This document shows, piece by piece, positions 43,849-60,831 of a stretch of DNA of 64,000 bases. The position numbers and the translations under genes are program-made. The stretch is from contig CAKNPS010000002.1 in NCBI GenBank assembly GCA_930990515.1, forward strand, positions 62,001 through 126,000, read 5' to 3'. Position 1 is the stretch's first letter. The number at the start of each line of letters is the position of its first letter. The notes under the pieces are model-generated. The model made no database searches. It saw nothing but the letters and a program-made list of their open reading frames with translations, and was not told where the DNA came from. The stretch comes from an uncultured Clostridia bacterium (GTDB lineage: Bacteria > Bacillota > Clostridia > Christensenellales > UBA1242).

Positions 43849-43856
43849 TATGCATC

Positions 43857-45011
43857 CTACAAATATTTCTTTATGTTTTTTGCTATTTGATTAAAAATTA
43901 TAGTTGGAACGGCCTCTCCAATAGATTGTCTTATATTAATATCATTCTGTTTTATAAATAATTGTTTATTGTCATTATCAAGTTTGTTTAATTCATTTAA
44001 TGACTTATCTGTCCATTTAAAGTCTTGAGGAATTGACATAAATCTCATAAGCTCTCTTATACTAAAAACTCTGTCATCATGTGGATGAATAGTATTTTGA
44101 CTAGCAAGAATATCATTTCTTGTATGAATACATGGTGCGACTTTGTCCCAGCATTGTCTTGTGTATTTATCTCCATTTTTTTTCTTGCAATATATTATAT
44201 CTCCATTTTTGTAATAATGTGGAACCTTAGATATATCTATATTGTCAAAAGCGCTTTGTCCTTCTCCTAAATCTTTTATCCATTTTCTCATTTCAGGATT
44301 ATATCTTCTGAATGAGTGAAAAATATCATCTTGTGAAATTTCTCCCATTTTTGATAATGATTTTAAATCCCCAATAACTTGTTTAATTGTTTTTTCAGAT
44401 TGCTTTGCTGGAAAAAGAAATTCAGGGTTGACATCAATATCTTTTCTAACACCAATCACTAAGGTTCTAGTCCTACTTGAATTTGAACCATAATCTTTGA
44501 AATTTAATACTTTACTTTCTATGTTATAGAACTTTGAAAGATTTGAGTTTATAGCTTCACTAATCTTTTTATTTGTGCCATCTATATCAGTGCATAAAGT
44601 ATTCATAAAAGCTCTAACATTTTCTATAATAAATGTTTTAGGTTTTATATCTCTAATTAACTTTAACGATTCTATTACTAATGAATTTCGAGCCTGCTCA
44701 TTTTTCTTTTTATGATTTGCAACAGACATTCCTTGACATGGTGGTGTAGCAATTATCGTAGTAATATCTTTTAAATTTTCATTATTTTTCCAAAATTGTA
44801 TTTCCTGATTAATTTTATCAACAGTTTCTTGTTTTAAAATATCCCCACAGATATATCCAGAATCATATTTGCATTTGTTATTGTATTTTTGTATTTGTAA
44901 TCTTTTTTGCAATAATTCATTTGTTGCAATGCATTCAAAATTTTCTTGCTTAAACCCATAACAACCAACACCAGCACTGCTAAAAAGAGAAATGTAAGTA
45001 TATTTATTCAT
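43857..45011 (-). CDS. DNA (cytosine-5)-methyltransferase
   Basis: 384 residues from the second ATG (45011), which has GGAGGG just before it. The ATG at 45023 adds four residues and contains that ribosome site. Motif I SLFSSAGVGCYGFKQ, motif IV ATPPCQGMS with the catalytic Cys, motif VI FIIENVRAF, motif VIII SSRTRTLVIGVR, motif IX RVFSIRELMRFMSIPQDF and motif X QSIGEAVPTIIFNQI, all in the standard order. It methylates C5 of cytosine in the host's recognition sites. Its 5' end overlaps the regulator gene. Confidence 0.93.
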   Translation of the reverse strand: MNKYTYISLFSSAGVGCYGFKQENFECIATNELLQKRLQIQKYNNKCKYDSGYICGDILKQETVDKINQEIQFWKNNENLKDITTIIATPPCQGMSVANHKKKNEQARNSLVIESLKLIRDIKPKTFIIENVRAFMNTLCTDIDGTNKKISEAINSNLSKFYNIESKVLNFKDYGSNSSRTRTLVIGVRKDIDVNPEFLFPAKQSEKTIKQVIGDLKSLSKMGEISQDDIFHSFRRYNPEMRKWIKDLGEGQSAFDNIDISKVPHYYKNGDIIYCKKKNGDKYTRQCWDKVAPCIHTRNDILASQNTIHPHDDRVFSIRELMRFMSIPQDFKWTDKSLNELNKLDNDNKQLFIKQNDINIRQSIGEAVPTIIFNQIAKNIKKYL

Positions 45012-45225
45012 TTGACCCTCCATTTATTGGTAAAACATCCATAATGTCTGATATGTTACAATTTAAAACATTGCATATCCTTAAAAGTACATCCATGCTG
45101 ACTTGCTCATTTTTTCCCAATTTTGCAAGAGTTGCAGTTCCAATGTCTGCTTTTAATCTTAAATCAGTTTTTGTCATATTTTTATCAATTAATTGTTTCC
45201 ATAGTTTATTATAAGAAATAGCCAT
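45004..45225 (-). CDS. XRE-family HTH regulator (RM controller-type protein)
   Basis: 73 residues with GGAGAAAG upstream. One Cro/C1-type helix-turn-helix (MTKTDLRLKADIGTATLAKLGKNEQVSMDVLLRICNVLNC) and almost nothing else, as in C proteins that delay endonuclease expression until methylation is complete. It starts the leftward operon and overlaps the m5C methyltransferase. A nested palindrome lies directly upstream. Confidence 0.8.
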   Translation of the reverse strand: MAISYNKLWKQLIDKNMTKTDLRLKADIGTATLAKLGKNEQVSMDVLLRICNVLNCNISDIMDVLPINGGSNE

Positions 45226-45247
45226 TACTTTCTCCTATTTGATTTTA

Positions 45248-45267
45248 TATGATGATATCATATCATA
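45248..45267. promoter_or_regulatory. probable operator of the RM controller gene
   Basis: Perfect palindrome ATGATATCAT (45252-45261) nested in TATGAT...ATCATA (45248-45267), 22-40 bases before the regulator ATG; typical of C-box-like autoregulatory sites. Confidence 0.5.
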
Positions 45268-45322
45268 AATGTTTCAAAATTGCAAATATTTTATTCGCAT
45301 TTTTGAATATTTTATTAAAATA

Positions 45323-45349
45323 TAAAAACTCTAAACCATTTAGAGTTTT
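45323..45349. terminator. bidirectional terminator near the right end of the element
   Basis: Perfect 12-bp stem AAAAACTCTAAA/TTTAGAGTTTTT with a CCA loop. Insulates the RM operon from the chromosome side. Confidence 0.75.
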
Positions 45350-45418
45350 TAATAATAACTTAATTTAATTCAAATGAGTAAATTCTATTTATTGGGTTTT
45401 TATTTCTTGTCGATTTAC

Positions 45419-45436
45419 ATCTCTAACGCTCCGCCA
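45419..45436 (+). repeat. right attachment-site candidate (degenerate tRNA-Ser 3' end)
   Basis: ATCTCTAACGCTCCGCCA matches the tRNA-Ser 3' end at 16 of 18 positions in direct orientation. A terminator hairpin follows, as would be expected behind the original tRNA gene. Confidence 0.55.
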
Positions 45437-45443
45437 TTATGTA

Positions 45444-45476
45444 CCCAACTAAGCGCCCTAGTTTAGTTGGGGTTTT
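45444..45476 (+). terminator. terminator behind the right tRNA remnant
   Basis: CCCAACTAA/TTAGTTGGG stem with a 10-nt loop, followed by GTTTT; lies just before trpF. Confidence 0.65.
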
Positions 45477-45494
45477 AAATATGAGGGGTATAAT

Positions 45495-46148
45495 ATGTTA
45501 GTAAAAATATGTGCAAATAAAAATATAAATGATGCCAAGATGTGTATAGACGCAGGGGCTGATTTTTTGGGAATATTGGTAGGCCAAAAACACGTTAGCA
45601 CAGATTTTATAGACAAATATACAGCCAAAGAAATGGTGAATTTTTCAAAAAGAAAAATAAAAACGGTTCTGGTTACACACCTAATAAATAGTGATGAGAT
45701 TATTGAATTGTCCCAATTCATTGGTAACGATGTTATACAACTTCACTCAAATATAGACGAGAGTGAAGTAGAAAAAATCGTAAAAGCTTTACCAAATATC
45801 AAACTTATTCGTCTTATTCATATTTCCCAAAAGGGACAGATCTGTACTAATTATAAAACTATGAAATATGCCGATTATTATCTTTTAGATAGTTTTAATC
45901 TCGAAACTAATCAAGTAGGAGGAACGGGTTTAATTCACGATTGGAATATTGACCGCGAATTGATTGAAAAATTAAGCAAACCAACCTTTATAGCTGGTGG
46001 ATTAACTCCAAAAAATGTTGCTAGTGCGATTAAAGCGGCAAAACCTGGCGGAGTCGATGTTAACTCTGGTTGTAAATTAAACGGAATAAAAAATGAAAGA
46101 CTTGTAAAAGAATTTGTTTTTAATGCTAAAAATGTTCAGTTGGGGTGA
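45495..46148 (+). CDS. trpF: phosphoribosylanthranilate isomerase
   Basis: 217 residues, with GAGGGG 6 bases before the ATG. VKICANKN at the N-terminus carries the catalytic Cys (usually KICG). Then ADFLGILVG, DVIQLHSN (LQLHG in most), YYLLDSF with the catalytic Asp, GGTGLIHDW (phosphate site), FIAGGLTPKNVASAI and GVDVNSGCKLNGIKNERL. The enzyme converts phosphoribosylanthranilate to CdRP in tryptophan synthesis. No other trp gene is in the window, so it is either solitary or serving a partial pathway. It sits directly at the right end of the integrated element. Confidence 0.9.
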   Translation: MLVKICANKNINDAKMCIDAGADFLGILVGQKHVSTDFIDKYTAKEMVNFSKRKIKTVLVTHLINSDEIIELSQFIGNDVIQLHSNIDESEVEKIVKALPNIKLIRLIHISQKGQICTNYKTMKYADYYLLDSFNLETNQVGGTGLIHDWNIDRELIEKLSKPTFIAGGLTPKNVASAIKAAKPGGVDVNSGCKLNGIKNERLVKEFVFNAKNVQLG

Positions 46149-46488
46149 AACGGTTTCCGCCATTGATTCTTTTAAAGTACCAAAGTTATATTGGTATTTT
46201 TTTAATAGTTGGAGAAGTTAAAATTAAATAAATGCTCAGATTATAAAAGATTAGTTTCATATAATTAAAATTCAACAAAGTATACTTCGATAAACAAATA
46301 CTTTCCACTATTTAAAAACCATTACAAAAGCATCTTGCAAACTTTAACCCTATCTACAAATATTACTTACGCCATTTTTCAAAACATTTATTAACTCCAC
46401 AAAGGAAAACTCTATAAGTTTTTTATTTTCAAAAGATTAATACAATTTTATGTTTTTTGTGTTATAATGAGAGTAAAGGAGATTTGAA
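46149..46488. other. 340-bp intergenic region
   Basis: AT-rich, no ORF or RNA recognised. An extended -10 TGTTATAAT (46460-46468) and AAGGAG precede the deaminase gene. Confidence 0.5.
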
Positions 46489-46908
46489 ATGGATATTTGG
46501 GAAAAAATGTATTTAAAAGCGAAAACAGAATATCACCCTGAAGAAGTTTCTCCATTCATAGATGCTCACCACGTCGTGTGTGCAATCGAAGCGGAAAATG
46601 GTGAAATTTATACTGGTTTTTGTATTGAGGGTGCCAGTGGAGTAATAAATTTGTGTGCGGAGAGAGTTGCAGGCCTTAACATGTATATTCAAAGTGGACA
46701 AACGGTTGTAAAAAAACTTATTGCTTTTAGGGACAATCCACCAAGTGGAAACGGAGGAATGCCATGTGGCGCATGCAGAGAATTTTTTATGCAACTTTCC
46801 GCCCAAAATAAAGATATGGAAATATTAACAGATTTCGAAACCCGAAAAACAATTAAACTTATTGATTTACTACCTGGTTGGTGGGGTTGGAAAAGATACA
46901 AAAAGTAA
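46489..46908 (+). CDS. cytidine deaminase-like zinc enzyme
   Basis: 139 residues. Zinc and catalytic motifs are NLCAERVA (C-A-E, the cytidine deaminase form) and GMPCGACREF (P-C-x-x-C). HHVVCAIEAENGEIYTGFCIE forms the preceding strands. These are the three-Cys, one-Glu set of homotetrameric cytidine and blasticidin-S deaminases. It deaminates (deoxy)cytidine in salvage, or a related nucleoside. The N-terminus (WEKMYLKAKTEYHPEEVSPFIDAHH) differs from classic Cdd, so the substrate is left open. Confidence 0.85.
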   Translation: MDIWEKMYLKAKTEYHPEEVSPFIDAHHVVCAIEAENGEIYTGFCIEGASGVINLCAERVAGLNMYIQSGQTVVKKLIAFRDNPPSGNGGMPCGACREFFMQLSAQNKDMEILTDFETRKTIKLIDLLPGWWGWKRYKK

Positions 46909-47289
46909 TTCTCTCCAAGTAACACCAGCAATATATTTATGTTAAGATTATTTACCAATTTTTTGCTATCTAAAAAAATCCAAACCTTTTAGAAATGACT
47001 AAATGGTATTGACTTCATAAAACAAATTGTAAATATATAGCTACTAGAAAAATTACATTCTATTAATCTTCCTTTATCGCACTACAAAATGAATAATAAA
47101 AGCAATCTATATTAGTTTTAATTCCACACTTTACTAAAAATCTCAAAATTTAACAAAAAAGCATAATCTGTCATATTTAAGTTTGACAGATTTTATTTTG
47201 TTTAAATTGTAGATAAATTTAAAATTTGATAATTTAAAAGTCATAATCTACAATTATCAAAATAACATTAGACTTATTTAGGAGAGGAT
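46909..47289. other. 381-bp intergenic region
   Basis: No gene seen. Holds a terminator-like hairpin AATCTGTCA/TGACAGATT (47165-47192) followed by TTATTTTG, and a spaced inverted repeat TTGTAGAT/ATCTACAA (47207-47253) upstream of ddh that could be an operator. Confidence 0.5.
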
Positions 47290-48267
47290 ATGAAAAAAAT
47301 AAATGTAGGTATTGTTGGATATGGAAATCTCGGCAAAGCCTTAGAAGAAATACTTTTAAGCGACAAAAATTTTAATTTGGTTAAAATTTTTTCTAGACGC
47401 GAATATTTGACAAGTAAATATGGAACAGGTTTTGACAAGACAATCAATTTAGAAAAATATAAAAACGACATCGATGTCTTATTTTTATGTGTTGGCAGTT
47501 TCAATGATATTGAAGAAATTGGTATAAAAGCAATTGAAAATTTCAATACTGTCGACAGTTTCGACACCCACAAAAAACTAAAAGATTACATATTTTCATT
47601 GGACACAAAAGGCAAACTATTTAAAAAAGTGGCATTGTCTGCTTTTGGCTGGGATCCCGGCTTAATGAGTTTAATTCGCGTTCTTTTTGACAGTATTTCT
47701 GAAGATGAGGGAGTATCAAATTCTTTCTGGGGAACTGGGGTAAGTCAAGGGCATAGCGATGCTTTAAGACGAGTTAATGGTGTTAAGAATGCCATACAAT
47801 ACACAGTTCCAAATCGAGAAATTATCTTAAAATGCAAAAGACAATTTAAATATACTCCTTCCGATTATGAAAAACATAAACGAATATGCTTTGTCGCAGA
47901 AAATCTTGACGAAAATAAAGATAAGATTGAAACTGAAATTATCAATATGCCTAATTATTTTAGCGGATATGAAACAGAAGTAAATTTTGTCGAAGAAAAT
48001 AAAATTGAAAAAATGCAAAAGAAACTTTCTCATAAAGGTTATATTGTAGATAACTTTAAAATTTTAAATCAATACACTTCCACTCTAGAATTTTCTCTTA
48101 AACTTGCCAGCAATCCACACTTCACTGCCAGAATGATGAGTGTGGGCGGAAAAATTGTTAATAAACTTTTTGAAGAAGAAAAATTTGGGGCATATTCCAT
48201 TTTAGACATTCCAATAAAATATTTTAGCGATTTAAAACGCGATGACCTTTTGTCAAAAAAATTATAA
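47290..48267 (+). CDS. ddh: meso-diaminopimelate D-dehydrogenase
   Basis: 325 residues (family about 320-330), with AGGAGAGG upstream. NADP-binding VGIVGYGNLGKALE at the N-terminus, FSRR, LFLCVGSFND, VDSFDTHKKL, SAFGWDPGLMSLIRVL, WGTGVSQGHSDALRRVNGV (substrate/closure loop) and the C-terminal NPHFTARMM. It reductively aminates tetrahydrodipicolinate to meso-DAP in one step, supplying lysine and cell-wall DAP. Single gene with its own upstream region. Confidence 0.93.
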   Translation: MKKINVGIVGYGNLGKALEEILLSDKNFNLVKIFSRREYLTSKYGTGFDKTINLEKYKNDIDVLFLCVGSFNDIEEIGIKAIENFNTVDSFDTHKKLKDYIFSLDTKGKLFKKVALSAFGWDPGLMSLIRVLFDSISEDEGVSNSFWGTGVSQGHSDALRRVNGVKNAIQYTVPNREIILKCKRQFKYTPSDYEKHKRICFVAENLDENKDKIETEIINMPNYFSGYETEVNFVEENKIEKMQKKLSHKGYIVDNFKILNQYTSTLEFSLKLASNPHFTARMMSVGGKIVNKLFEEEKFGAYSILDIPIKYFSDLKRDDLLSKKL

Positions 48268-48352
48268 AACTCTAACAAAGCATACCTATTAAAGTTTTAA
48301 ATATAAGAACGCAATACACCTAATTGAAAATCGTTGTTTTCAAAAATTTATT

Positions 48353-48380
48353 AATAACGGGCAAAATTTTTCCCGTTATT
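48353..48380. terminator. convergent terminator ddh / Spo0A-C-like gene
   Basis: Perfect 9-bp stem AATAACGGG/CCCGTTATT with a 10-nt loop. The last codons and stop of the minus-strand gene lie in its right arm. Confidence 0.75.
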
Positions 48381-48726
48381 TTCGTTTTAAATAATACTTT
48401 ACAAGTAGTCCTATTAATTTACCACTAGTTAATTTTGTGTCACTTTGAACCACTTTTTTTGAAAACATTTTATTAAGTTCTAAAAAAGATTTTGATTTCT
48501 TTATTAAATTAATTGCAAACCTAATATCTCTTTCAACCGAATGATATGGCGTGTTATACATATCACTGACTTGAACAAATATGCCGTTGCATAAATTTAA
48601 GTCGGGATATAAAATAGACAATTCCACAGCCGTGCACAAGTATTTAAAACCTCTTAAGTTTGCTCTGATTCCTATTCTTAAAAGAGAATATTTAATATCA
48701 TTCCTTAACTTCTCTATTTCTTCCAT
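48376..48726 (-). CDS. orphan Spo0A C-terminal-domain DNA-binding protein (divergent copy)
   Basis: 116 residues from the ATG at 48726, chosen because GAGGTG stands six bases before it; an ATG at 48741 contains that site. The whole protein is a Spo0A-C-type helical domain: ISYS-like LLRIGIRANLRGFKYLCTAVELSI, then VSDMYNTPYHSVERDIRFAINLI, matching the YLYLREAI...VERAIRHAIE recognition-helix region of Spo0A. No receiver domain precedes it, so it cannot be phosphorylated like Spo0A. It is a divergent paralogue of the two identical genes at 50.4 and 56.4 kb. Target genes unknown. Confidence 0.75.
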   Translation of the reverse strand: MEEIEKLRNDIKYSLLRIGIRANLRGFKYLCTAVELSILYPDLNLCNGIFVQVSDMYNTPYHSVERDIRFAINLIKKSKSFLELNKMFSKKVVQSDTKLTSGKLIGLLVKYYLKRK

Positions 48727-48786
48727 TGTAACACCTCGCAATGTTTTAAATTCGACAAAAAGGTTTATCTTTCGACCTATGACGAC

Positions 48787-48815
48787 ATTATAACAAAACT
48801 TGATAAGTTTTGCAA
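48787..48815 (-). promoter_or_regulatory. promoter of the divergent Spo0A-C-like gene
   Basis: Minus strand TTGCAA, 17-bp spacer, TATAAT. Confidence 0.55.
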
Positions 48816-48931
48816 ATATTTTTGTAATATTTTACAAAATTTTTCAAAACAAAACGAGCTTTCAAAATTTTAAATTAAAATTAGTTTGCATTTAGTTTGT
48901 TTTATTTTAAAAAGTTGATATAATATTAATT

Positions 48932-49714
48932 ATGATAAATATAACATGGTATGGGACAGCCACGATATTAATGGAAATTGATGGAACTAAATTGCTTTTT
49001 GACCCATTTTTTAGAATGAATAAAAAATTAGAACACCCTAAACTTGAAGAATTTACTAGGGTGGACTATATCTTTAACACGCACCCACATTTTGACCATC
49101 TTTGTGATTTACCACTTATTTTAAAGAACACTGATGCACAACTATACGGAACTCCAACAGCATATCTTCGCCTTGAGACACAAGGTGTTGATGTTGAAAA
49201 GCAAGTTGTAATTATACATAACAAAGAAATTTTGGAAATGGAGAACTTCTCTATTAAGACACATCAAAGCAAGCATATTGATAACAACTTGAGCATTGTT
49301 CTTTTGACCGCCTTAAAGGTTTTGTTCACTTTCCAAATTCACAAAGCCTACAAACTCTTAAAACTGCACAACAAATATAGAATGGGTGGAGATATTGTTG
49401 CATTTGAGATAAACGCACAAAACAAAACAATTCTTATTTTCGGCTCAGCCGGCATCAGTAACAAAGCCAAACTTCCAAAAAATGTCGATGTTTTAATTTG
49501 GCCTTTTCAGGGGCGAACCAATATGACAAAATATTTTCTGCCTATCATCAAAAAAATAGGACCAAAAACTGTTATTCTTGACCATTTTGACAATGCTTTT
49601 CCTCCAATAACTGAGCACATTAATACAGACAAATTTGTTAAAACAATGGCAAAGAAATTTCCAGATATGAAAGTTATTGTTCCAAAATATCACGAAAAAA
49701 TTGAAATTATTTAA
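48932..49714 (+). CDS. metallo-beta-lactamase-fold hydrolase
   Basis: 260 residues. ITWYGTATILMEIDGTKLLFDPFF opens the fold, HPHFDH (His51, His53, Asp55, His56) is the dinuclear metal motif, and TILIFGSAGIS and ILDHFDNAFPP supply later loops. The layout is UlaG/MBL-fold, acting on a phosphodiester, lactone or similar. An insertion near 125-150 (LSIVLLTALKVLFTFQIHKAYKLL) is hydrophobic and may contact the membrane. Probably co-transcribed with the phosphatase 10 nt downstream. Confidence 0.85.
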   Translation: MINITWYGTATILMEIDGTKLLFDPFFRMNKKLEHPKLEEFTRVDYIFNTHPHFDHLCDLPLILKNTDAQLYGTPTAYLRLETQGVDVEKQVVIIHNKEILEMENFSIKTHQSKHIDNNLSIVLLTALKVLFTFQIHKAYKLLKLHNKYRMGGDIVAFEINAQNKTILIFGSAGISNKAKLPKNVDVLIWPFQGRTNMTKYFLPIIKKIGPKTVILDHFDNAFPPITEHINTDKFVKTMAKKFPDMKVIVPKYHEKIEII

Positions 49715-49724
49715 AGGAGATAAT

Positions 49725-50267
49725 ATGATTTATTTTGTAAGGCATGGACAAACTTTTGACAATTTAAATAACATAATTCAAGGAAATGGCGATTTAACTC
49801 CTTTAGGCGTTGAACAAGCAAAAGAAACTGCGGTAAAATTGAAAGATGTAAAGTTTGATATTTGTTTTTGTTCTCCACTTAAAAGGACGAAACAGACATT
49901 GAAAGAAATTCTTAAATTCCACAAAAATTTAGAAGTCGTCTATGATAACAGATTGATAGAAAGAGATTATGATGAAGTTGTCGGTAAACATTTTAGTGAA
50001 ATAATAAACTTTGAAGGCAGATGGAAAGGCACTGAAACTTTGCCATACAAAATTGAAAGCCTTGACGATTTCTATAATAGAGTGGCTTCTTTTTATAATG
50101 ATGTTAAAAAGCAATACGGCGAAAAAACAGTTTTAGTTGTTTCTCACAATGGTGTGGCAAAAATGTCAAATGCTTATTTTAATGGAATGCCTAAAGACAA
50201 AGATTTCTCAACCTTTTCTCTTAAAAATGGAAGTTTTCATATTTTTCAATATAAGAAAAATAAATAA
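49725..50267 (+). CDS. histidine phosphatase family protein (phosphoglycerate mutase-like)
   Basis: 180 residues from the ATG at 49725 (AAAGGAG upstream; an in-frame ATG inside the previous gene has none). FVRHGQTFDN gives the catalytic RHG, CFCSPLKRTKQTL the second Arg, ERDYDEVVGK the acid loop, and VVSHNGVAKM the second catalytic His. These enzymes remove phosphate through a phospho-His intermediate; substrates include sugars, alpha-ribazole phosphate and nucleotides. The specific one is not readable. Confidence 0.88.
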   Translation: MIYFVRHGQTFDNLNNIIQGNGDLTPLGVEQAKETAVKLKDVKFDICFCSPLKRTKQTLKEILKFHKNLEVVYDNRLIERDYDEVVGKHFSEIINFEGRWKGTETLPYKIESLDDFYNRVASFYNDVKKQYGEKTVLVVSHNGVAKMSNAYFNGMPKDKDFSTFSLKNGSFHIFQYKKNK

Positions 50268-50292
50268 ATTTTGAAAAATATTGTAAAATTGC

Positions 50293-50321
50293 TTTGAATT
50301 TTGTAAACGGTGTGGTATAAT
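50293..50321 (+). promoter_or_regulatory. promoter of Spo0A-C-like copy A
   Basis: TTTGAA/TTGAAT at -35 and TATAAT (50316-50321). Transcription from about 50328 gives a 130-nt leader beginning with an AGTCAG/CTGACT hairpin (50327-50346). Confidence 0.6.
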
Positions 50322-50459
50322 AATAAAGTCAGTTAAAATGCTGACTCATTCATTTGGTTAATTCCTCAGAATTGAGTTTACATACTTTTTACCTTACTTG
50401 GAACTTATGGGTGCCTTTCTTTTTCTGTGCGTAACTGAATGAATTTAAAAGGAAAGTGT

Positions 50460-50864
50460 ATGAAAGAATGTGATTTGATTAAAATTAGAAAAGTTGTAAA
50501 ATACGCACTAATAAGAATTGGGTTCCAAGTTAATCGTATCGGTTTTAGTTATCTTTGCTATGCCATTGAACTTGTCATTCAAGAACCACCTCTTATTCAT
50601 AGATTATGTAAAGGTGTTTATAGCAAAGTTGCTGAAAAATATGGTGTAAGTTTTTCTTGCATTGAAAGAGATATACGCCACTCTATTGAAGCAACTTTCC
50701 TAGATAGAAGTTTCTTAGAAGTGAATCAAATGTTTAAGTTAAATATATTTACCATTGACGATAAACCAACTGCTGGGGAGTTTATTCAACTAATAGCAGA
50801 ATATTATCATTTAGGTTTATATAGTAGAGAACTTGCTTTTCAAAATACAGTCGCCGTGCAATAA
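50460..50864 (+). CDS. orphan Spo0A C-terminal-domain DNA-binding protein, copy A
   Basis: 134 residues from the ATG at 50460, the one preceded by AAAGGAAAG; a second ATG 21 nt upstream lacks a site. Spo0A-C fold: VVKYALIRIGFQVNRIGFSYLCYAIELVI, then GVYSKVAEKYGVSFSCIERDIRHSIEATF, which aligns with the DNA-recognition helices of Spo0A. An extension of about 40 residues (NQMFKLNIFTIDDKPTAGEFIQLIAEYYHLG) follows. No receiver domain. The translated product is identical to copy B at 56414-56818, pointing to recent duplication or gene conversion. It might compete with or replace Spo0A at 0A boxes; this is inference. Confidence 0.8.
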   Translation: MKECDLIKIRKVVKYALIRIGFQVNRIGFSYLCYAIELVIQEPPLIHRLCKGVYSKVAEKYGVSFSCIERDIRHSIEATFLDRSFLEVNQMFKLNIFTIDDKPTAGEFIQLIAEYYHLGLYSRELAFQNTVAVQ

Positions 50865-51025
50865 AAGACGTTGTCTTGATTTAAGTATTTACTTAAAATC
50901 TTCGGTTAAAAACTATATAACCTGAGTAAAATTAAAAAACAAATTTTAAATTAAAAAATAAAAAAAGGCAACACCTCTCAAAAGTAAACATAGGCACCCA
51001 AAGCACATTTGTGTTTTTTTTATTT

Positions 51026-51739
51026 TTAATTTATTACACTTGACTCTTGCTCAGTATTGTTAGAAAAATTTACTGTGACTTTGGCATTAACACTAATTTT
51101 TCCTATAAGTTCACTTCCTGTTGAATTTTCAGAATAAGAACGATATAGAGAACCTGACGAATAAACAGTTTCTTCTTTAAGCCCTATTGCTGTGAGATTT
51201 TCATAACCTAAAAATTTTGCTTTTTCTTCAGCATTTAAAATTGCTTTTTTGATTGCTTCATTATAAACACTATCTAAATTTGACAAAGAATATGTCACGC
51301 TATTAATGGAAGTTGCTCCATTTTCTGTTAAAATATCTACATAAGATTTTATATCTAAATTATCCACACAAACGGAAAAAGTGGTTGAAGTGTGATATCC
51401 TAGTAGAGTTTTTCCATTGTTATAATCGTAGTTTGGATATGATGAATAATAATCTAAAGTGATGTTTTCTTTGGAAATTCCCGCATCAATTAAGGCTTTT
51501 ACCACTTTATCAAAAATTTCAAAATTTTCATTTTTTGATTTAACATTATCCATATCTAAGGTTTCAATACGTGCAGAAATTTCTGCTCTGTCAGGTGTAG
51601 CATAAATTGTGGAATTTCCAGTTATTGTCAAATTTTGGGCAAGAGTGGAAGCAGAAGCAATGTGAAAATTTGTTTGTGATGTCAATAGACAAGCAAACAT
51701 TAAAAGAATGGCAAGACTAAAAATAATTTTCCTTTTCAT
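51026..51739 (-). CDS. SIMPL-domain (DUF541) secreted protein
   Basis: 237 residues from the ATG at 51739 with AAGGAGATAA before it; the longer frame upstream has no site. Signal peptide 1-28 (RKIIFSLAILLMFACLLTSQ). Then the SIMPL pattern: NLTITGNSTIYATPDRAEISARIETLD, GISKENITLDYYSSYPNYDY, GYHTSTTFSVCVDNLD, INSVTYSLSN, AILNAEEKAKFLGYENLTAIGLKEE and a closing ISVNAKVTVNFSN strand. Family members are extracytoplasmic and form oligomeric rings; their role is unclear. The last codons lie at the edge of inverted repeat A. Confidence 0.9.
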   Translation of the reverse strand: MKRKIIFSLAILLMFACLLTSQTNFHIASASTLAQNLTITGNSTIYATPDRAEISARIETLDMDNVKSKNENFEIFDKVVKALIDAGISKENITLDYYSSYPNYDYNNGKTLLGYHTSTTFSVCVDNLDIKSYVDILTENGATSINSVTYSLSNLDSVYNEAIKKAILNAEEKAKFLGYENLTAIGLKEETVYSSGSLYRSYSENSTGSELIGKISVNAKVTVNFSNNTEQESSVIN

Positions 51740-51805
51740 AATTATCTCCTTTTTGCCTATTCTTTTTCTTTGCAAAAGTTTTATTACGAAACGACAAAGA
51801 AAGAC

Positions 51806-51829
51806 AAAAACAGGCAAAAGCCTGTTTTT
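51806..51829 (-). terminator. terminator of the FGase/NUDIX fusion gene
   Basis: Perfect AAAAACAGGC/GCCTGTTTTT stem with a 4-nt loop and T tract. Confidence 0.75.
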
Positions 51830-51981
51830 AATTTAATATATTTTATATTTAATCTAAAAATCGCAAGACCTATTTTATATAACATAAAGTTCATAAAAAT
51901 TTTGATAACCTTTTGCTGATTATTTAAATTTTATTATATTTTAAATTAATTTAAATTTTGTTACCTACAAAATTTTTTCAT

Positions 51982-53022
51982 TTAATTATCCTTTAGTTCT
52001 CCTTGCACAGTTGCGAAGTTTTCCTTCCAAAAGTTTTTCATATTGTCATAACTAAGTTTGTCTAAAACTTCTTCAGCCTTCACCCAGACAAGATTTTCTT
52101 TATTTTCTTCACGAATTATTTTTTTTGTTTTTCCTAAATCCTCGGCAAGAAACATTTTGACAACAACCTTTCCTTCTTTGTTTCGATATTTAATGTCAGA
52201 AAGTGGACAAATAATTTTCCCTTCTCTCCCTGTTTCTTCCGTAGTCTCTCTTAAAGCACATTCCTCAATGTTTTCGCCTTTTTCAAGGTGTCCTTTTGCA
52301 AAAGAATAGTCTTGATGTAAATCTCTAAAAACAAGTCCTACTTTTTTAGTTTTTCTGTTGATTAAAATTGTGCCCGCTTTATATATGATTTTATCGTTGG
52401 CATTTTTTTCGATATATTTAATCCAATCTTCAAACACTGACAATAATTTTTCAAGTTTGTCTTTGTTTTTTAGATTATTGGTTATTCCGCTATTAATTTC
52501 CACCTGAATTGTCCAAGATTTTCCATTAAAAGTTCCAGCGATTGTGCGTGCTGGTGCAAAATACGGAGCGTCAATAGTGACTTTAAACTTATTTTTTTTG
52601 AGTTCTTTAACAAGTTTTTCGAACAAGGAAACATCACTCTTAACATTTTCACCAAAATTTATACCTAAGTTTATATCCATTTCTCTATAACTTGCCAGGC
52701 CGTGAAAATCAATGATATAGTCAATGTTGTCAATCTCACGGGATATTTTTGTTTTGTATGGACTATGTTCATCAAAGTTAGCATCGTCAAAATTGTTTTT
52801 TGTTTTTGCAATAAATTTTGTGTGTAGCCTATTATACAATTCAAGTGCAAACGCAAATGAACCAGGTTCTTGGTGCTTAGGAACGCCAAGTCTTGTTTGT
52901 GGAACACCATGTGGAGCAGAAATTAAAATTTTGCTATCTGAATTTAAATAGACAAAATCATTATCCTTATTTTCTCTTAAAAATGTTTTACGATTACGAA
53001 CAAATTTATTGTAACTGAACAT
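51982..53022 (-). CDS. N-formylglutamate amidohydrolase-like / NUDIX fusion protein
   Basis: 346 residues. The N-terminal part (about 25-205) looks like the zinc-dependent N-formylglutamate amidohydrolase fold: ILISAPHGVPQTRLG (His38), YIIDFHGLASYREMDINLGI (Asp105, His107) and WTIQVEINSGI. The C-terminal part (about 212-335) is a NUDIX domain with the box GHLEKGENIEECALRETTEETG (244-265) and preceding GLVFRD and FAKG strands. NUDIX enzymes hydrolyse nucleoside diphosphates linked to other groups. The pairing is unusual; a role in damage or metabolite cleaning is possible. The ribosome site AGGAG lies within the 3' arm of a terminator-like hairpin. Confidence 0.75.
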   Translation of the reverse strand: MFSYNKFVRNRKTFLRENKDNDFVYLNSDSKILISAPHGVPQTRLGVPKHQEPGSFAFALELYNRLHTKFIAKTKNNFDDANFDEHSPYKTKISREIDNIDYIIDFHGLASYREMDINLGINFGENVKSDVSLFEKLVKELKKNKFKVTIDAPYFAPARTIAGTFNGKSWTIQVEINSGITNNLKNKDKLEKLLSVFEDWIKYIEKNANDKIIYKAGTILINRKTKKVGLVFRDLHQDYSFAKGHLEKGENIEECALRETTEETGREGKIICPLSDIKYRNKEGKVVVKMFLAEDLGKTKKIIREENKENLVWVKAEEVLDKLSYDNMKNFWKENFATVQGELKDN

Positions 53023-53025
53023 AAA

Positions 53026-53052
53026 AAACTCCTATTATTTAAATAGGAGTTT
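53026..53052 (-). terminator. terminator-like hairpin sequestering the ribosome site of the fusion gene
   Basis: Perfect 11-bp stem AAACTCCTATT/AATAGGAGTTT with a 5-nt loop. On the minus strand it is followed by T residues and then directly by the ATG; the AGGAG of that gene is in the 3' arm. Confidence 0.75.
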
Positions 53053-53220
53053 AACACAAAATAATTTTTTTTCAAAATGTTTAGACATAATTGCAAATTC
53101 ATTTTTTATTATGACAATAATGCTACCTAGTTTAAAAATTGTTTTTAATAAGTATAATTGATTTTGAAATGTTTATAAATTAATAAGACCTTTGGAAGAA
53201 TCAAGAATACATCACTGATG

Positions 53221-54414
53221 CTATTCGGCAACAGGAACTTTTGCTTGAAGTTTGATGCCTTCTTTTTCAGGGTAATAGTCTTCAACATTAAAACTTGAGT
53301 TTGGATTGTTTATATTTTTGCCATTTCTATCTTTTGTTTTTGGAGAAACAAAACCGTAGAAATCTTTAACATTTTTGTCTAATACAAGTTTCGGCTCTTT
53401 ATAACCAAAGGCTTGGTCGAAGATAGGATTTTCATACATTGTGTCCACAATTTTGCTTGCTTGTTGAAATTCAAATGTGTCCACAATTTTCTTTTGATAT
53501 TTTCGCATTTCTTCTGTTGAAATGAGTTTATTTTGACAGTCATTTGCAATACGTTCGTAGTTTTGTGCTTCAGTAAGTGCTGGGTCATAATTCGCTTCTT
53601 TAGTTAAGATTTCGTCTTGAAATCTTTCGAACTTTTCTTTTATTTCTGGTAAATTCATTGCACTTATAATTTCACAAACTCTTTCATCTTTTAGCTTTGC
53701 TTGAATTTCTTTTGCTCTTGAAAAAGTTATGTCAATAATGAAAGGAATGTGTCGATCATATATGTGAGCATCAGCGACAACATGTGCTAACTCTCCCACT
53801 TGCATACCGCTAACCTGTGCAAGCATATGAACAAGAGCAGCATATTGTATGACATTCCAATTTCCAGCAGCGAGAGTGTCGTTTGAACGTTGGTTTAAAA
53901 CTAAATTCAATTTGTTTCCGTCAGTAACCACAAAATTTAAACCGTGAACGCAAGGAGATAAATGCATTTTGTTAAGGTCTTCAGGGATATAGAGTTCTGC
54001 AAGTATTCTTCTACTTGATGGGTCATTTTTGAGTTGATATAAAATTCTGTCAATTTGGTCAAAGTCGCCTTCTTTATAATGTGACACCTTTCTTACTTGA
54101 GCACCATAGGCTTCTCCAATACTTCCTTTATCATCTGCCCATTGATTCCATACATTGCTGTGAAGGTCATTTATATTATTACTTTTCTTTACCCAAATCC
54201 ACATCATTTCATCAATTGCCCCACGCCAATTTGTGTTTCTTATTGATGTGATTGGAAATTCCTCGCTTAAATTATAAAGGTTGCAAACCGCGAATTTTTT
54301 GATTGCGTATGCTGGAGTTCCGTCTTCCCATTTTGGACGAACTTCGCCAGTTTCCCAACATCCTTTTAAAATTGAATTTGCTGTTTTTAAGTATGAATAA
54401 TCGGCTTTACTCAT
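53221..54414 (-). CDS. thyA: thymidylate synthase (ThyA), long form with insertion
   Basis: 397 residues against about 260-320 usually. Core motifs are intact: SSRRILAEL (phosphate Arg pair 135-136), HLSPCVHGLNF with catalytic Cys155, QRSNDTLAAGNWNVIQYAALVHMLAQVSG and AHIYDRHI. A charged helical stretch of about 110 residues (about 227-340) follows before the C-terminal FNVEDYYP and the ending AKVPVAE. The enzyme makes dTMP from dUMP with methylene-THF. The gene overlaps the upstream NTPase gene by ATGA, consistent with joint nucleotide-pool control. Confidence 0.88.
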   Translation of the reverse strand: MSKADYSYLKTANSILKGCWETGEVRPKWEDGTPAYAIKKFAVCNLYNLSEEFPITSIRNTNWRGAIDEMMWIWVKKSNNINDLHSNVWNQWADDKGSIGEAYGAQVRKVSHYKEGDFDQIDRILYQLKNDPSSRRILAELYIPEDLNKMHLSPCVHGLNFVVTDGNKLNLVLNQRSNDTLAAGNWNVIQYAALVHMLAQVSGMQVGELAHVVADAHIYDRHIPFIIDITFSRAKEIQAKLKDERVCEIISAMNLPEIKEKFERFQDEILTKEANYDPALTEAQNYERIANDCQNKLISTEEMRKYQKKIVDTFEFQQASKIVDTMYENPIFDQAFGYKEPKLVLDKNVKDFYGFVSPKTKDRNGKNINNPNSSFNVEDYYPEKEGIKLQAKVPVAE

Positions 54415-55037
54415 TTTACATTTCCTCCTTTTCCATTTAATTTTTTAACTGCATTGAAACATTTTTTATCAAGCAATTTAAAGTCTTCAGTCGAAACACT
54501 AGAAATCCAATATTTTCTTTTTATATTTAAATGTTGAAACATTTGTCGGTTTGGATTTTCTATTAAATTGGCTTTTTTGGCATTGCGTATTGCTTTTATC
54601 AATTGTTTTTTTCGGCCGTGCTGAAAATTGCTTAAAAGACTAGTAACACCACCAGGAAAACTTTTGGAAGTATTATTTTCGATTTCGTGAACAAGGTCAT
54701 TGAGATTTCCACCTAGTTTTATATAATCATACATATTTTTGCTAATTTCATAAAAATAACCACAGCCAAATCTAAATCCTTGCGGTTCTTTTATGCAACA
54801 CACATCGCTAATAAAATATCTTCCAGCATTAGAAAAAACGCCATCTTCAATCGAAATGACGGTTTCAAAAGGCGTTGCTGTTGTTTCGTTTGCTCGTCTA
54901 TATGCGCACATAAATGTATCAATGTTTTCAGGCTTATAAGTATAGTAAAATTTTGATGTCCTATCTTCTATATGATATTCAGGAAAACACATTCTAACCG
55001 CTGAAATTTTGCTTGCGTTTTTACTTGCAATAACCAT
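54411..55037 (-). CDS. YjjX/DUF84-like inosine/xanthosine triphosphatase
   Basis: 208 residues. VIASKNASKISAVRMCFPEYHIED at the N-terminus, ANETTATPFETVISIEDGVFSNAGRYFISDVCCI (central Glu-Asp active strand), RFGCGYFYEI, LGGNLNDLVHE and KSFPGGVTSLLSNFQHGRKKQLIKAI follow the house-cleaning NTPase pattern (non-canonical purine NTP to NMP). The C-terminal 45 residues (RQMFQHLNIKRKYWISSVS...) are extra and unassigned. The match is partial, so the substrate is tentative. Located between recF and thyA in one operon. Confidence 0.7.
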   Translation of the reverse strand: MVIASKNASKISAVRMCFPEYHIEDRTSKFYYTYKPENIDTFMCAYRRANETTATPFETVISIEDGVFSNAGRYFISDVCCIKEPQGFRFGCGYFYEISKNMYDYIKLGGNLNDLVHEIENNTSKSFPGGVTSLLSNFQHGRKKQLIKAIRNAKKANLIENPNRQMFQHLNIKRKYWISSVSTEDFKLLDKKCFNAVKKLNGKGGNVK

Positions 55038-55104
55038 TTACATCTCCTATTCAAATTCTATCATAAATAGACAAGGAAATCAATATGCTTTTTGAAATTT
55101 TTTG

Positions 55105-56190
55105 TCACTTTTTGAAGACTTCGCCATTTACAATTTCAAAGATTTCCCCATTGATTTTTTTCTCGTCAGTGCAAGTGATAAAAGTCTGTGTTCTGTCGGC
55201 AAATTTTAAAAGACGCTTTTGTCTGTCAGAGTCAAGTTCGCTGAAAACATCGTCAAGCATAAGAATTGGATATTCGCCTGTTATTGCATTGATGTTTTCA
55301 AGTTCGGCAAGTTTAAGAGAAAGGGCAACCGTTCTTTGTTGTCCTTGAGAACCAAAAGTTTTAACTTCCACTCCGTTTAAATATATATCAATATCATCGC
55401 GGTGAACACCAATTGTGGTATAGCCAAAGCGGAAGTCTTTTTCAAGATTTTTCTTTAAAAGTTTGTCCATATTTTCTTCAAACTTTTCGTCAAGTTTAAC
55501 TCCACAGCCTGAGATATATTTTAATTCAATTTTTTCTTTACCACCACTTAAATATGATTGAGCCTTTTCGGTGTATGGAGTGATATTTTCCACAAATTTT
55601 ACTCTTTCAAAAGCAATCTTTTTTGCTGTTTGCACGAGTGCTCTGTCCCAAATGTCAATGGTGTCTTTGACATAATCAATGTTGTCAGAATTTTTAAGAA
55701 GTTTGTTTCTGTTTGCTAAAATTTTTTCATAGCGAGAAAGTAAATAGAAATATCTTTTGTTTGTTTGTGAGATGTCAATGTCCATAAATTTACGGCGTTC
55801 GTCTGGGCTTTCTTTCACAAGTTTAAGTTCGTTTGGTGAAAAGAAAACGACATTAATTTCCCCAATAAGTTCACCAATCTTTTTGATAGGAAGAGAATTG
55901 ATTAAAACCACTTTTTTGTGAGTTTTTGAAAGTTTGATTTCCACTTTCACATCACGATATTTTCTCTCAGCGGTAAGTCCAATGTAACCATCTTCTTTTT
56001 CCCATTTGATGATGTCTTTGTCTTTAATTGATTTAAAACTTTTTCCAATGCAACAATAAAATATGCTTTCGAGTAAATTGGTTTTTCCTTGTGCATTTTT
56101 ACCCATAAAAACATTAACTTTATCACTGAAATTTATTTTTAAGTTGTCATAGTTGCGAAAATTTCTAAGACTTAACGATGTCACTTTCAT
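55105..56190 (-). CDS. recF: DNA replication and repair protein RecF
   Basis: 361 residues, family length. Walker A MGKNAQGKTNLLESIFYC near 30-47, preceded by LSLRNFRNYDNLKINF. Then VVFFSPNELKLVKESPDERRKFMDIDISQ (the Q/pro-loop region), the ABC signature TFGSQGQQRTVALSLKLAEL, and Walker B PILMLDDVFSELD with the D-loop. It loads RecA with RecO/RecR at gaps. Normally recF follows dnaN on the same strand. Here it is upstream of dnaA on the opposite strand, inside a segment bounded by large inverted repeats. Confidence 0.95.
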   Translation of the reverse strand: MKVTSLSLRNFRNYDNLKINFSDKVNVFMGKNAQGKTNLLESIFYCCIGKSFKSIKDKDIIKWEKEDGYIGLTAERKYRDVKVEIKLSKTHKKVVLINSLPIKKIGELIGEINVVFFSPNELKLVKESPDERRKFMDIDISQTNKRYFYLLSRYEKILANRNKLLKNSDNIDYVKDTIDIWDRALVQTAKKIAFERVKFVENITPYTEKAQSYLSGGKEKIELKYISGCGVKLDEKFEENMDKLLKKNLEKDFRFGYTTIGVHRDDIDIYLNGVEVKTFGSQGQQRTVALSLKLAELENINAITGEYPILMLDDVFSELDSDRQKRLLKFADRTQTFITCTDEKKINGEIFEIVNGEVFKK

Positions 56191-56299
56191 AAGTATATTA
56201 TACCATAATCAATGTTATAATTTAATTGTTTTTAGCAAATTTTCTTAAATTAAAAATAAAAAGCACAAATGTGCTTTGGGTGCTTTATGTTTACTTTTG

Positions 56300-56314
56300 A
56301 GAGGCGTTGCCTCT
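56300..56314 (-). terminator. hairpin with GTT/AAC triloop in repeat B
   Basis: AGAGGC-GTT-GCCTCT with a following T tract on the plus strand and A tract on the other. A second hairpin AGCACA/TGTGCT lies at 56260-56275. Confidence 0.6.
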
Positions 56315-56413
56315 TTTTTATTTGTTCATTTAAAATTTGTTTTTTAATTTACTCAGGTTATATAGTTTTTAACCGAATATTTTAAGTAAATACTTAAATC
56401 AAGACAACGTCTT

Positions 56414-56818
56414 TTATTGCACGGCGACTGTATTTTGAAAAGCAAGTTCTCTACTATATAAACCTAAATGATAATATTCTGCTATTAGTTGAATAAACTC
56501 CCCAGCAGTTGGTTTATCGTCAATGGTAAATATATTTAACTTAAACATTTGATTCACTTCTAAGAAACTTCTATCTAGGAAAGTTGCTTCAATAGAGTGG
56601 CGTATATCTCTTTCAATGCAAGAAAAACTTACACCATATTTTTCAGCAACTTTGCTATAAACACCTTTACATAATCTATGAATAAGAGGTGGTTCTTGAA
56701 TGACAAGTTCAATGGCATAGCAAAGATAACTAAAACCGATACGATTAACTTGGAACCCAATTCTTATTAGTGCGTATTTTACAACTTTTCTAATTTTAAT
56801 CAAATCACATTCTTTCAT
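56414..56818 (-). CDS. orphan Spo0A C-terminal-domain DNA-binding protein, copy B
   Basis: Same 134-residue product as copy A (50460-50864), with the same start context (AAAGGAAAGTGT before the ATG). It is preceded by TATAAT (56962-56957) and TTGGAT at -35. It is divergent from dnaA, so it may share regulatory DNA with the dnaA promoter region. The perfect protein identity next to a slightly diverged leader and tail suggests selection or gene conversion. Confidence 0.8.
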   Translation of the reverse strand: MKECDLIKIRKVVKYALIRIGFQVNRIGFSYLCYAIELVIQEPPLIHRLCKGVYSKVAEKYGVSFSCIERDIRHSIEATFLDRSFLEVNQMFKLNIFTIDDKPTAGEFIQLIAEYYHLGLYSRELAFQNTVAVQ

Positions 56819-57228
56819 ACACTTTCCTTTTAAATTCATTCAGTTACGCACAGAAAAAGAAAGGCACCCATAAGTTCCAAGTAAGGTAAAAAGTATGTAA
56901 ACTCAATTCTGAGGAATTAACCAAATGAATGAGTCAGTATTTTAACTGACTTTATTATTATACCACGCCATTTACAAAATCCAAAACATTTTTACAATAT
57001 TTTTCAAAATTTATTTACTATATTATTATATATAATATATATTATATAATATATATACTTATTTATTACAGTTGAAAATTTTTAAAATAAAAAAATGCAA
57101 AAATTTCACTTTAAAATCACAAATTTTTTAAAAATTATGAATTTTTATTAACTTTTTTAAAAATTATATACAAAATAAGGTTGAAATTTTGTTTCCAATC
57201 TTGTATAATTAAATTAGGTAGGTGCATT
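56819..57228. other. 410-bp dnaA upstream region
   Basis: Left half is the leader and promoter of Spo0A-C copy B. 57011-57180 is almost pure A/T with a run of TATA-type dinucleotides (57017-57060), an easily melted stretch next to dnaA. No perfect DnaA box seen here. Confidence 0.55.
57181..57209 (+). promoter_or_regulatory. dnaA promoter
   Basis: TTGAAA, 17-bp spacer, TATAAT (57204-57209); AGGTAGGTG precedes the ATG at 57229. Confidence 0.75.
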
Positions 57229-58578
57229 ATGCAAGATATTGAAACTTTATGGAAACAAATTTTAGAGAAACTTGAACTTAGAATTTCCTCAGTTTCTTTT
57301 ATGCTTTGGATAAAAACAATTAAGCCACTTGAAATTGATGATAAAGATAATTTTTATATTGTTGCACAATCAGTGACAGCAAAAAATCAAATTTTACGTA
57401 ATTTTATTGATAAAATCAGTGATTGTTGTTATGAAATTGTTGGAAAAAAGTTAAATATCACAGTTTTAGACCAAAATGAAGAAATAGAATATTTAAAAAA
57501 TAATCAAACAAAAGAAACTGTTTCTAAAAGAGATGAAAAATCTCCATTTATGGAAAAATACACCTTTGACAACTTTGTTGTTGGAAAAAGTAACCAATTT
57601 GTTTATGCTGCAGCAAGAACAGTTGCAGAACATCCAGGAAAAAGATATAATCCACTTTTTATTTATGGTGGTGTTGGACTTGGAAAAACACACTTACTTC
57701 ACGCAATTGGCAATTATATTTACGAATTTTCTCCAGAACTCAAAATTAAGTATATTACTTGCGAACAATTCACAAATGACTACATTGCATCTCTTTATTC
57801 TTCCACAAAAAATAAATCTATTATGGAATTTCGTGGGAAATATAGAAATCTTGATGTTTTAATGGTTGATGATATACAATTTATCTATAGAGCAAAAGAA
57901 ACTCAAGAAGAATTTTTCCATACTTTCAATGAGCTTATTATGAATAATAAACAAATCATCATTTGTTCTGACCGTCCACCAAAAGAAATTGAAAATTTGG
58001 AAGATAGGTTACAATCGAGATTTTCAAGTGGACTTATTCACGATATTCAACCACCTGACATAGAAACAAGAATCGCCATTTTACACAAAAAAAGTCAACT
58101 TGAAAAATATTATGCTGAAGACCAAGTAATTAATTATATTGCAGAACATGTTGAAAGCAATATCAGAGAACTTGAAGGAAAATTGTCTGAAGTTTACTTT
58201 TTAGCAACTTTAAATGGAAAAAAAGTAGCAACAATGGAAGAAGCAGAAGAAATTTTCTCAAAATCTAACAAATCTGAAATTAAAGGTGAACTTACACCTG
58301 AAGCAATAATAAATGTTGTTTGTGATTATTTCAAAGTTGATTATAAAGATATTGTGGGTAAAAAGAAAAATAAAGAAATTGTTGAACCAAGAATGATTGC
58401 TGTTTATTTAATTTCTGAACTTTTAAACCTTCCACTTGTCAACATAGGAAAAATTTTTGGCGGAAGAGACCATACAACAATTATGCATTCAAGAGATAAA
58501 ATTACTGAAGAAGTTAAAAACAATAAAAAGACAGCAAACATTGTCAACGAAATTCGCCAGACATTGTCTGTTTCTTGA
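57229..58578 (+). CDS. dnaA: chromosomal replication initiator DnaA
   Basis: 449 residues from the ATG at 57229, the first start behind both the promoter and a ribosome site. Domain I about 1-80 (LWKQILEKLELRISSVSFMLWIKTIKPLEI), a short linker domain II, domain III AAA+ with FVVGKSNQFVYAAA, Walker A GGVGLGKTHLLHAIGN, Walker B LMVDDIQFI, sensor I SDRPPKEI and box VII RLQSRFSSGL. Domain IV contains EPRMIAVYLISELLNLPLVNIGKIFGGRDHTTIMHS, the DnaA-box-binding signature. It opens oriC and recruits helicase. Confidence 0.98.
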   Translation: MQDIETLWKQILEKLELRISSVSFMLWIKTIKPLEIDDKDNFYIVAQSVTAKNQILRNFIDKISDCCYEIVGKKLNITVLDQNEEIEYLKNNQTKETVSKRDEKSPFMEKYTFDNFVVGKSNQFVYAAARTVAEHPGKRYNPLFIYGGVGLGKTHLLHAIGNYIYEFSPELKIKYITCEQFTNDYIASLYSSTKNKSIMEFRGKYRNLDVLMVDDIQFIYRAKETQEEFFHTFNELIMNNKQIIICSDRPPKEIENLEDRLQSRFSSGLIHDIQPPDIETRIAILHKKSQLEKYYAEDQVINYIAEHVESNIRELEGKLSEVYFLATLNGKKVATMEEAEEIFSKSNKSEIKGELTPEAIINVVCDYFKVDYKDIVGKKKNKEIVEPRMIAVYLISELLNLPLVNIGKIFGGRDHTTIMHSRDKITEEVKNNKKTANIVNEIRQTLSVS

Positions 58579-58646
58579 TTCTTATAGGTTCTATCTGTTT
58601 TATAAATTAAAATGCATTACTTTTTTAAAAACAAATAACATTTGTT

Positions 58647-58679
58647 AAAAGTGTAAAATTTAAAAGTTTTTACACTTTT
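58647..58679 (+). terminator. dnaA terminator
   Basis: AAAAGTGTAAA/TTTACACTTTT stem followed by a T tract. Confidence 0.75.
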
Positions 58680-59011
58680 TTTATTTTTTACTATAAAAAA
58701 ATTGTGATTTTTTTAATTTTTAAACTTAAAATGAATAAAAAAACTTAAAATTTAAGATAAATCTTTAAAAAATATCAAAAAAATACTTAAAATTTTAATT
58801 TTTTGTCAAAATTTTATGTTTTTTTGTATATTTTTACTTATTTTTTATAATTTTTTACACATCAACTTTCTAAAATATTATAAAATTTATCAATCGCTAC
58901 AATTCGCTAATTTAAAGGTTTGTAGCAATTTTATTATTATAAATATAGCGTATTATATTAATAAAAAGGGAAAATTTCCCCCACTTTGGAAATGTGGAAA
59001 AATAAAAAAAA

Positions 59012-59020
59012 TTATACACA
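59012..59020 (+). promoter_or_regulatory. DnaA box
   Basis: TTATACACA, consensus TTATNCACA. Confidence 0.8.
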
Positions 59021-59023
59021 ATT

Positions 59024-59032
59024 TTATCCACA
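59024..59032 (+). promoter_or_regulatory. DnaA box
   Basis: TTATCCACA, the highest-affinity form; 12 bp after the preceding box in the same orientation. Confidence 0.85.
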
Positions 59033-59108
59033 TTTTTCAAACACTAAATATGGTAATTTTTTAGGAATTTTTCGACAATTTTTTTCTATATTTTGTGGGT
59101 TAAAAAAG

Positions 59109-59117
59109 TTATACACA
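59109..59117 (+). promoter_or_regulatory. DnaA box
   Basis: TTATACACA, followed directly by TTTCCACAG (weak box). Confidence 0.8.
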
Positions 59118-59178
59118 TTTCCACAGCCATTATAATTATTAGTGTGATGCTATAAATAAAATTAATTTAAAATTTTAG

Positions 59179-59207
59179 TTGCACGCACGCGAAAAGTGTG
59201 TTATAAT
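59179..59207 (+). promoter_or_regulatory. dnaN promoter
   Basis: TTGCAC, 17-bp spacer, extended -10 TGTTATAAT. Confidence 0.7.
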
Positions 59208-59237
59208 ATTAGCGTATAAAAATAAAAGGGGTGTCTT

Positions 59238-60829: not shown

Positions 60830-60831
60830 AA

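Follow-up and report, generated by a model that had tools for sequence, protein, structure and literature searches.

Spo0A usually acts as a lone master regulator gated by phosphorylation, and the 0A boxes at abrB stand in tandem at 10 bp. According to the available text of PMC3485338, the isolated Spo0A DNA-binding domain binds its targets without phosphorylation, and the core site TGTCGAA is contacted at G2, C4 and G5, with a C4A or G5A change weakening Spo0A binding approximately 10-fold in C. difficile. Gut phages carry truncated spo0A genes with the effector domain only, as described in the accessible part of PMC10294663; within the open-licence papers searched and the text of them available, this was the only description of receiver-less Spo0A, and no report of a chromosomal radiation was found. 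A described operator that resembles the one considered here is the WalR/VicR regulon box, with direct TGTAAA-type repeats upstream of promoters, for which the accessible text of PMC9210968 gives the repeat TGTWAH-N5-TGTWAH, with a period of 11.

Here we analyzed a stretch of 64,000 nucleotides (the window) from an uncultured Clostridia bacterium that holds several genes for the Spo0A DNA-binding domain, which we call orphans. Our leading explanation, for which we see as much reason to believe as to doubt, is that the orphans are genus-wide, chromosomal, receiver-less Spo0A paralogues that would form a phosphorylation-independent, Spo0A-derived regulatory layer, with DNA binding predicted. A natural radiation of this kind would directly test how much of Spo0A control requires the receiver.

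Orphan genes and their predicted fold

The window contains orphan copy A1 (50460..50864, + strand; 134 amino acids; alternative start at 50439), the identical copy A2 (56414..56818, − strand; longer frame to 56839), which is divergent from dnaA, and gene B (48376..48741, − strand; start at ATG 48726 or TTG 48741), with approximately 42% identity. For A1, ATG 50460 is the likely start and is favored over ATG 50439; AGGAAAG precedes 50460. The products scored 87.6 bits (A1/A2) and 58.4 bits (B) against PF08769, Spo0A_C, with a curated cut-off of 25, and a domain search of A1, A2 and B returned Spo0A_C only and no receiver domain. A1, A2 and B span 8.5 kb, and A1 and A2 have the same ORF sequence at the DNA level as well as the same product. 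The preliminary description had proposed three genes within 9 kb for a Spo0A DNA-binding domain without receiver, two of them identical and one divergent from dnaA, and in all of these points it was borne out.

The host genome (1.18 Mb in 10 contigs) has five Spo0A_C genes in total. A fourth orphan, D, lies outside the window at C2:133929, 14.7 kb past dnaA, and is 75% identical to A. A full-length Spo0A of 240 amino acids, the protein whose presence the preliminary description had left to be checked, is found at C2:3697, 115 kb away, with both a Response_reg receiver and an effector domain; it scored 230.2 bits against the TIGR02875 equivalog (cut-off 200), which the orphans missed (A, 60.3; B, 37.9; D, 55 bits). 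Spo0A_C match counts in metagenome genomes would overcount Spo0A.

An AlphaFold2 model from 11 input sequences reached a pLDDT of 88.6 and a pTM of 0.84. The top seven Foldseek matches were all Spo0A-C (chains of 1fc3 and 1lq1; probability, 1.00), and these seven chains were the only matches at an E value below 0.001, with TM scores of 0.67 to 0.77 by query. As had been anticipated, the predicted model has the Spo0A-C fold, and the modelling indicates that the orphans retain this fold and its helix-turn-helix without the phosphorylation domain. They resemble the Spo0A effector domain (PF08769; 1fc3, 1lq1) in fold, helix-turn-helix and ER..IRH core, with E values against the PDB chains of 3.8e-11 and 1.6e-10; they differ from it in having no receiver, in an identity of 26 to 28% in structural alignments, in recognition-helix residues that vary by clade, and in a variant tandem box. 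Elsewhere in the window, positions 41270-45225 hold a cluster of a C5-type cytosine methyltransferase, an N6-adenine-type methylase, an HNH-like protein and a Cro-type regulator that, judged by eye, resembles a restriction-modification island.

Duplication, conversion and exchange of cassettes

A1 and A2 lie in an inverted repeat of 773 nt, with one cassette at 50261..51033 (+ strand) and the other at 56246..57017 (− strand), which are approximately 97.8% identical with 16 differences. The 559 nt at 50341-50899, covering the greater part of the leader together with the ORF and its 3' edge, are the same in both copies and hold none of the 16; a difference-free run this long arose in 0 of 200,000 random placements of the 16 differences. 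The cassette flanks differ at approximately 7%, and the neighboring genes of A1 and A2 are unrelated; therefore, A1 and A2 are not an assembly copy, a possibility that the preliminary description had kept in view. Recent gene conversion on top of an older duplication would fit the cassettes best. Identical copies would raise the dose of the product, and gene conversion would keep them alike.

Similar pairs occur in relatives. In G110, two loci are 99.6% identical over 542 nt, a stretch that starts 152 nt 5' of the ORF and reaches the stop codon, with no similarity past it; further duplicate orphan pairs were found in G069, G090 and G113. At the dnaA start of G105, a match of 553 nt has 87% identity, and this homology upstream of dnaA ends at the promoter-side end of the A2 cassette, so A2 is a local gain.

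The D locus (C2:133500-137034; L041 13500-17034) was 97.9% identical to G105 and 97.3% identical to the metagenome-assembled genome BRZ_EA bin76, against mostly 67 to 87% for the other matched regions of their contigs. In BRZ_EA bin76, the D segment follows the metallo-beta-lactamase gene, which is where A1 lies in the window. The segment contains orphan D, two TIGR02206-like membrane proteins (below cut-off), a 177-amino-acid gene of unknown function and a 95-amino-acid gene, and neither a transposase nor an integrase was seen there. We read the D segment as having been exchanged between species, presumably by recombination. Carriage of the orphans by mobile elements was rejected, because no transposase or integrase recurs beside them in the genus loci; in three genomes, an orphan had a recombinase no more than four genes away.

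A family across the genus

A receiver-less match was present in 35 of 37 genus genomes by hand count. From 80 stretches of relatives, which were picked from the best matches and do not cover the whole set, and seven stretches of this genome, we collected 96 orphan frames and 3 Spo0A sequences. Two short orphans were dropped from the tree, in which the remaining 94 formed one group apart from Spo0A (SH-aLRT, 98). The earlier suggestion of a dedicated family was borne out. Sequence comparison indicates purifying selection on the orphans: dN/dS was 0.05 to 0.27 in four of the five pairs compared, and in the fifth, A versus D, dS was saturated and dN was 0.157. Ten clades, hand-picked on a tree, were compared column by column. 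Helix columns 67, 69, 70, 71 and 74 were 93 to 100% conserved within clades, with 4 to 5 residues among the 10 clades, and the columns aligned to R211, E213, R214, A215 and H218, which we take to be the B. subtilis Spo0A residue numbers, are among those with the least variation inside a clade and the most between clades. The clades thus diverge mainly at recognition-helix positions, and from the conservation of this helix we infer that the orphans may bind DNA sequence specifically.

The recurrent neighbors of the orphans are mostly housekeeping genes: yidC-rnpA, parAB, nrdD, dnaX, SIMPL and metallo-beta-lactamase, several of these names being given by sequence reading. This bears on the idea that the orphans are captured phage anti-sporulation genes, that is, truncated phage spo0A. 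Such genes have been published and, in the accessible part of PMC10294663, share with the orphans the effector domain only, a gut habitat and a proposed independence of the phosphorelay; additionally, the D locus moves between species. However, the neighbors are not phage genes, one pattern scan found no relative in viral contigs, and, among 11 phage-collection matches, the 6 examined were full-length-like frames of 253 to 292 amino acids that fall outside the orphan group. The orphans are also set apart from the phage genes, as that part of PMC10294663 describes them, in being chromosomal, several per genome, next to housekeeping genes, under their own promoter class and radiated within one genus. 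Thus, a phage origin was unsupported, and we regard it as quite improbable.

The preliminary description had placed the family near oriC, and in this genome all four orphans are less than 15 kb from dnaA, with the A2 operator approximately 0.2 kb from the dnaA start, as would suit a replication regulator in which A2 controls dnaA or origin firing. Across 37 genus genomes, however, 9 of 66 orphans were less than 20 kb from dnaA, and 5 of 62 when this genome was left out (p 0.10), so proximity to oriC was rejected as a rule of the family. G105 keeps the sequence upstream of dnaA without the copy. The expected enrichment of 0A boxes near dnaA did not appear either, with 7 TGTCGAA in the window versus 5.6 expected and none between A2 and dnaA. 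We consider a replication role at oriC very unlikely. Of the genus genomes, 40 of 41 had SpoIVA and 36 of 37 had SpoIIGA (the SpoIIGA matches being below its curated cut-off); therefore, members of the genus are probably spore-formers.

A tandem box in phase with an extended -10

The orphan promoters, whose -35 and -10 we presume to be sigma-A-like, share a layout of two TTGWAAA boxes 10 bp apart, helix-phased to an extended -10 that is followed by a GTC element. The tandem box lies at 50269..50288 (+ strand; TTTTGAAAAATATTGTAAAA) upstream of A1 and at 56990..57009 (− strand) upstream of A2, and overlapping tandem boxes lie at 48820..48849 (− strand) upstream of B. The extended -10 is TGGTATAAT in A1 (50313..50321, + strand) and A2 (56957..56965, − strand) and TGTTATAAT in B (48787..48795, − strand). 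Within 2 mismatches, the window has 5 sites of TTTTGWAAAATATTGWAAAA versus 0.16 expected, and 4 of the 5 sites precede the three orphans; the whole genome has 6 sites within 1 mismatch, 4 of which are those of the four orphans. Across the genus, at up to 3 mismatches, the tandem box precedes 48 of 92 orphans, versus 11 of 700 other genes, and is absent from the other 44 orphan upstream regions. The distances from the box to the extended -10 were 32-34, 43-45, 54-55, 64-66 and 97, in steps of approximately 10.75, and the phasing was strong (n = 41; best site per promoter, up to 4 mismatches; Rayleigh, ~1e-16). Among 49 pairs of successive boxes no more than 24 bp apart, the spacing was exactly 10 bp in 32 and 11 bp in none. 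Related promoters are not independent, so the p-values of all the promoter comparisons given here are overstated. No earlier report of this tandem operator was found in the open-licence papers searched. The sole non-orphan control gene with a tandem box within 1 mismatch (L167 2823) is one where the box lies upstream of an NrdD-type reductase-like start; nrdD also adjoins orphans in several genomes.

Compared with the 0A core, the shared box keeps TG...AA and has A at positions 4 and 5, so that both C4 and G5 are replaced. Since C4A and G5A lower Spo0A binding, according to the available text of PMC3485338, ordinary Spo0A may not read the tandem box. The canonical TGTCGAA was also enriched, being found upstream of 22 of 92 orphans versus 47 of 908 controls, and scrambled words were not enriched. 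One perfect canonical box lies in the leader of B (48751..48757, − strand), and in G096 two perfect 0A boxes face each other upstream of one orphan. Upstream of spoIIGA, the genus had no clear canonical 0A pair, a result that is uninformative and that we counted against our leading explanation. Clades whose recognition helices are very different have nearly the same tandem box upstream; therefore, a single reader shared by all is likelier than every orphan reading a site of its own.

Other genes behind the box and its possible readers

Of 101 genus genomes, 95 have a gene for a 175-amino-acid protein (G000:C1:34988-35512; L194 1608-2135). The tandem box, at up to 3 mismatches, preceded this gene in 16 of the 17 upstream regions parsed from 30 loci, the other 13 loci being unparseable, and stands before a TTGACT/TATAAT promoter. 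The protein matched no Pfam family, and "HTH-like" is a reading of its sequence. A structured small RNA of 197 nt with no ORF (G000 C2:253806-254002, − strand; L196 1271-1467; fold z, -5.1) has sisters in G105 and BRZ_EA bin76 (L294 1006-1223 and L307 1069-1256; z, -8.1 and -6.9). These small RNAs have a tandem-box promoter as in the orphans and a 3' hairpin similar to the one on orphan mRNAs. In the sisters, whose minimum-energy folds are formed without them, the complementary ends GGGTGTTTT/AAAACACCC become GAGTGTTTT/AAAACACTC. An Rfam search of L196, L041 and L194 gave just a T-box and a tRNA, both in L041; thus, the small RNA at C2:253806-254002 has no match in Rfam. No convincing remnant orphan was found downstream of the promoter at C2:254036. 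Among 20 further box sites fetched, several lay inside or beside genes without a clear promoter. In G020, a second small-RNA-like family with three copies (L289, L290 and L293) has an GTATTTAATAA stem, a GGGGA-type terminator loop and also a tandem-box promoter.

The presence of the box before the core 175-amino-acid gene and the small RNAs, its occurrence in genomes with few orphans, and its resemblance to TGTWAH repeats would all suit a tandem box read by another regulator, either a WalR/PhoB-type response regulator or the 175-amino-acid HTH-like protein, with the orphans as mere members of the regulon. However, the WalR repeat has a period of 11 in the text of PMC9210968 available, and the orphan operator has a period of 10 and never 11, which sets it apart from the 11-bp hexamer arrangement of the WalR type. 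The 175-amino-acid protein is weakened as a reader by G009, where a perfect box stands next to an orphan and no match to this protein was detected. Another regulator is a possible explanation that we hold to be somewhat less than probable.

In our leading explanation, the orphans, which coexist with full-length Spo0A and in about half of the cases have the tandem box of 10-bp period phased to the extended -10, would bind DNA without phosphorylation as a second regulatory layer derived from Spo0A. The reader of the tandem box, Spo0A~P or an orphan, would turn on the orphans, the core HTH-like protein and the small structured RNAs, and each orphan would then bind its own variant box, regulating itself plus further targets. 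We infer such phosphorylation-free binding, a Spo0A-linked network and self-regulation at the GTC palindrome. The full version of this scheme, in which spare Spo0A DNA-binding domains gave rise to a phosphorylation-free network of orphans, HTH-like protein and small RNAs behind one 0A-derived operator, with cassettes copied, converted and exchanged and with clade-specific variant boxes, is put forward tentatively, and as a whole it is doubtful. Clade-specific helices together with a shared, strictly spaced operator would allow a direct test of a master regulator spawning a family.

Start-site element, leader and 3' end

In A1, the GTC element forms the 5' hairpin AGTCAGT-TAAAAT-GCTGACT (50328..50346, + strand), and A2 has the same element with ACTGACT (56932..56950, − strand), both sets of coordinates being counted from the sequence. 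The preliminary description had noted that a base change in the leader keeps this hairpin paired, which was confirmed: G50340 in copy 1 and A56938 in copy 2 close the stem AGTCAGU..RCUGACU as U-G and U-A, respectively. A DNA palindrome would show this single change as well, which makes it weak evidence for an RNA hairpin. Of 55 distinct orphan promoters, 23 had a GTC 4 to 12 nt downstream of the -10, versus 15 of 333 control sites; strong short inverted repeats occupied the start-site position in 12 of 55 orphan promoters versus 16 of 305 controls. The sequences of the start-site elements differ and their position is constant, so an RNA hairpin and a palindromic operator both fit. The GTC/GAC palindrome at the start site would probably be part of the orphan's own binding site.

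Further into the leader of A1, a left arm, AUUCAUUUGGUU (50348..50359, + strand), pairs with a right arm at 50433..50444 (+ strand), directly before the ribosome site. In six sequences, the A/D leader hairpin and 12-bp helix pair in 99.1% of cells; the changes are one-sided (G-U), with no double changes, and the leader fold alone is unremarkable (z, -1.3 and -1.4). Rfam gave no match on 45000-61000. The leader also contains GGGTGCC (50409..50415, + strand; counted by hand), complementary to GGCACCC in the 3' untranslated region (50993-50999); GGCACCC and the terminator-like hairpin after it, AAAGCACATTTGTGTTTTTTT, together occupy 50993..51022 (+ strand). By eye, the complementarity of GGGTGCC and GGCACCC is present in A1 and D, and in A2 one of its seven pairs is lost.
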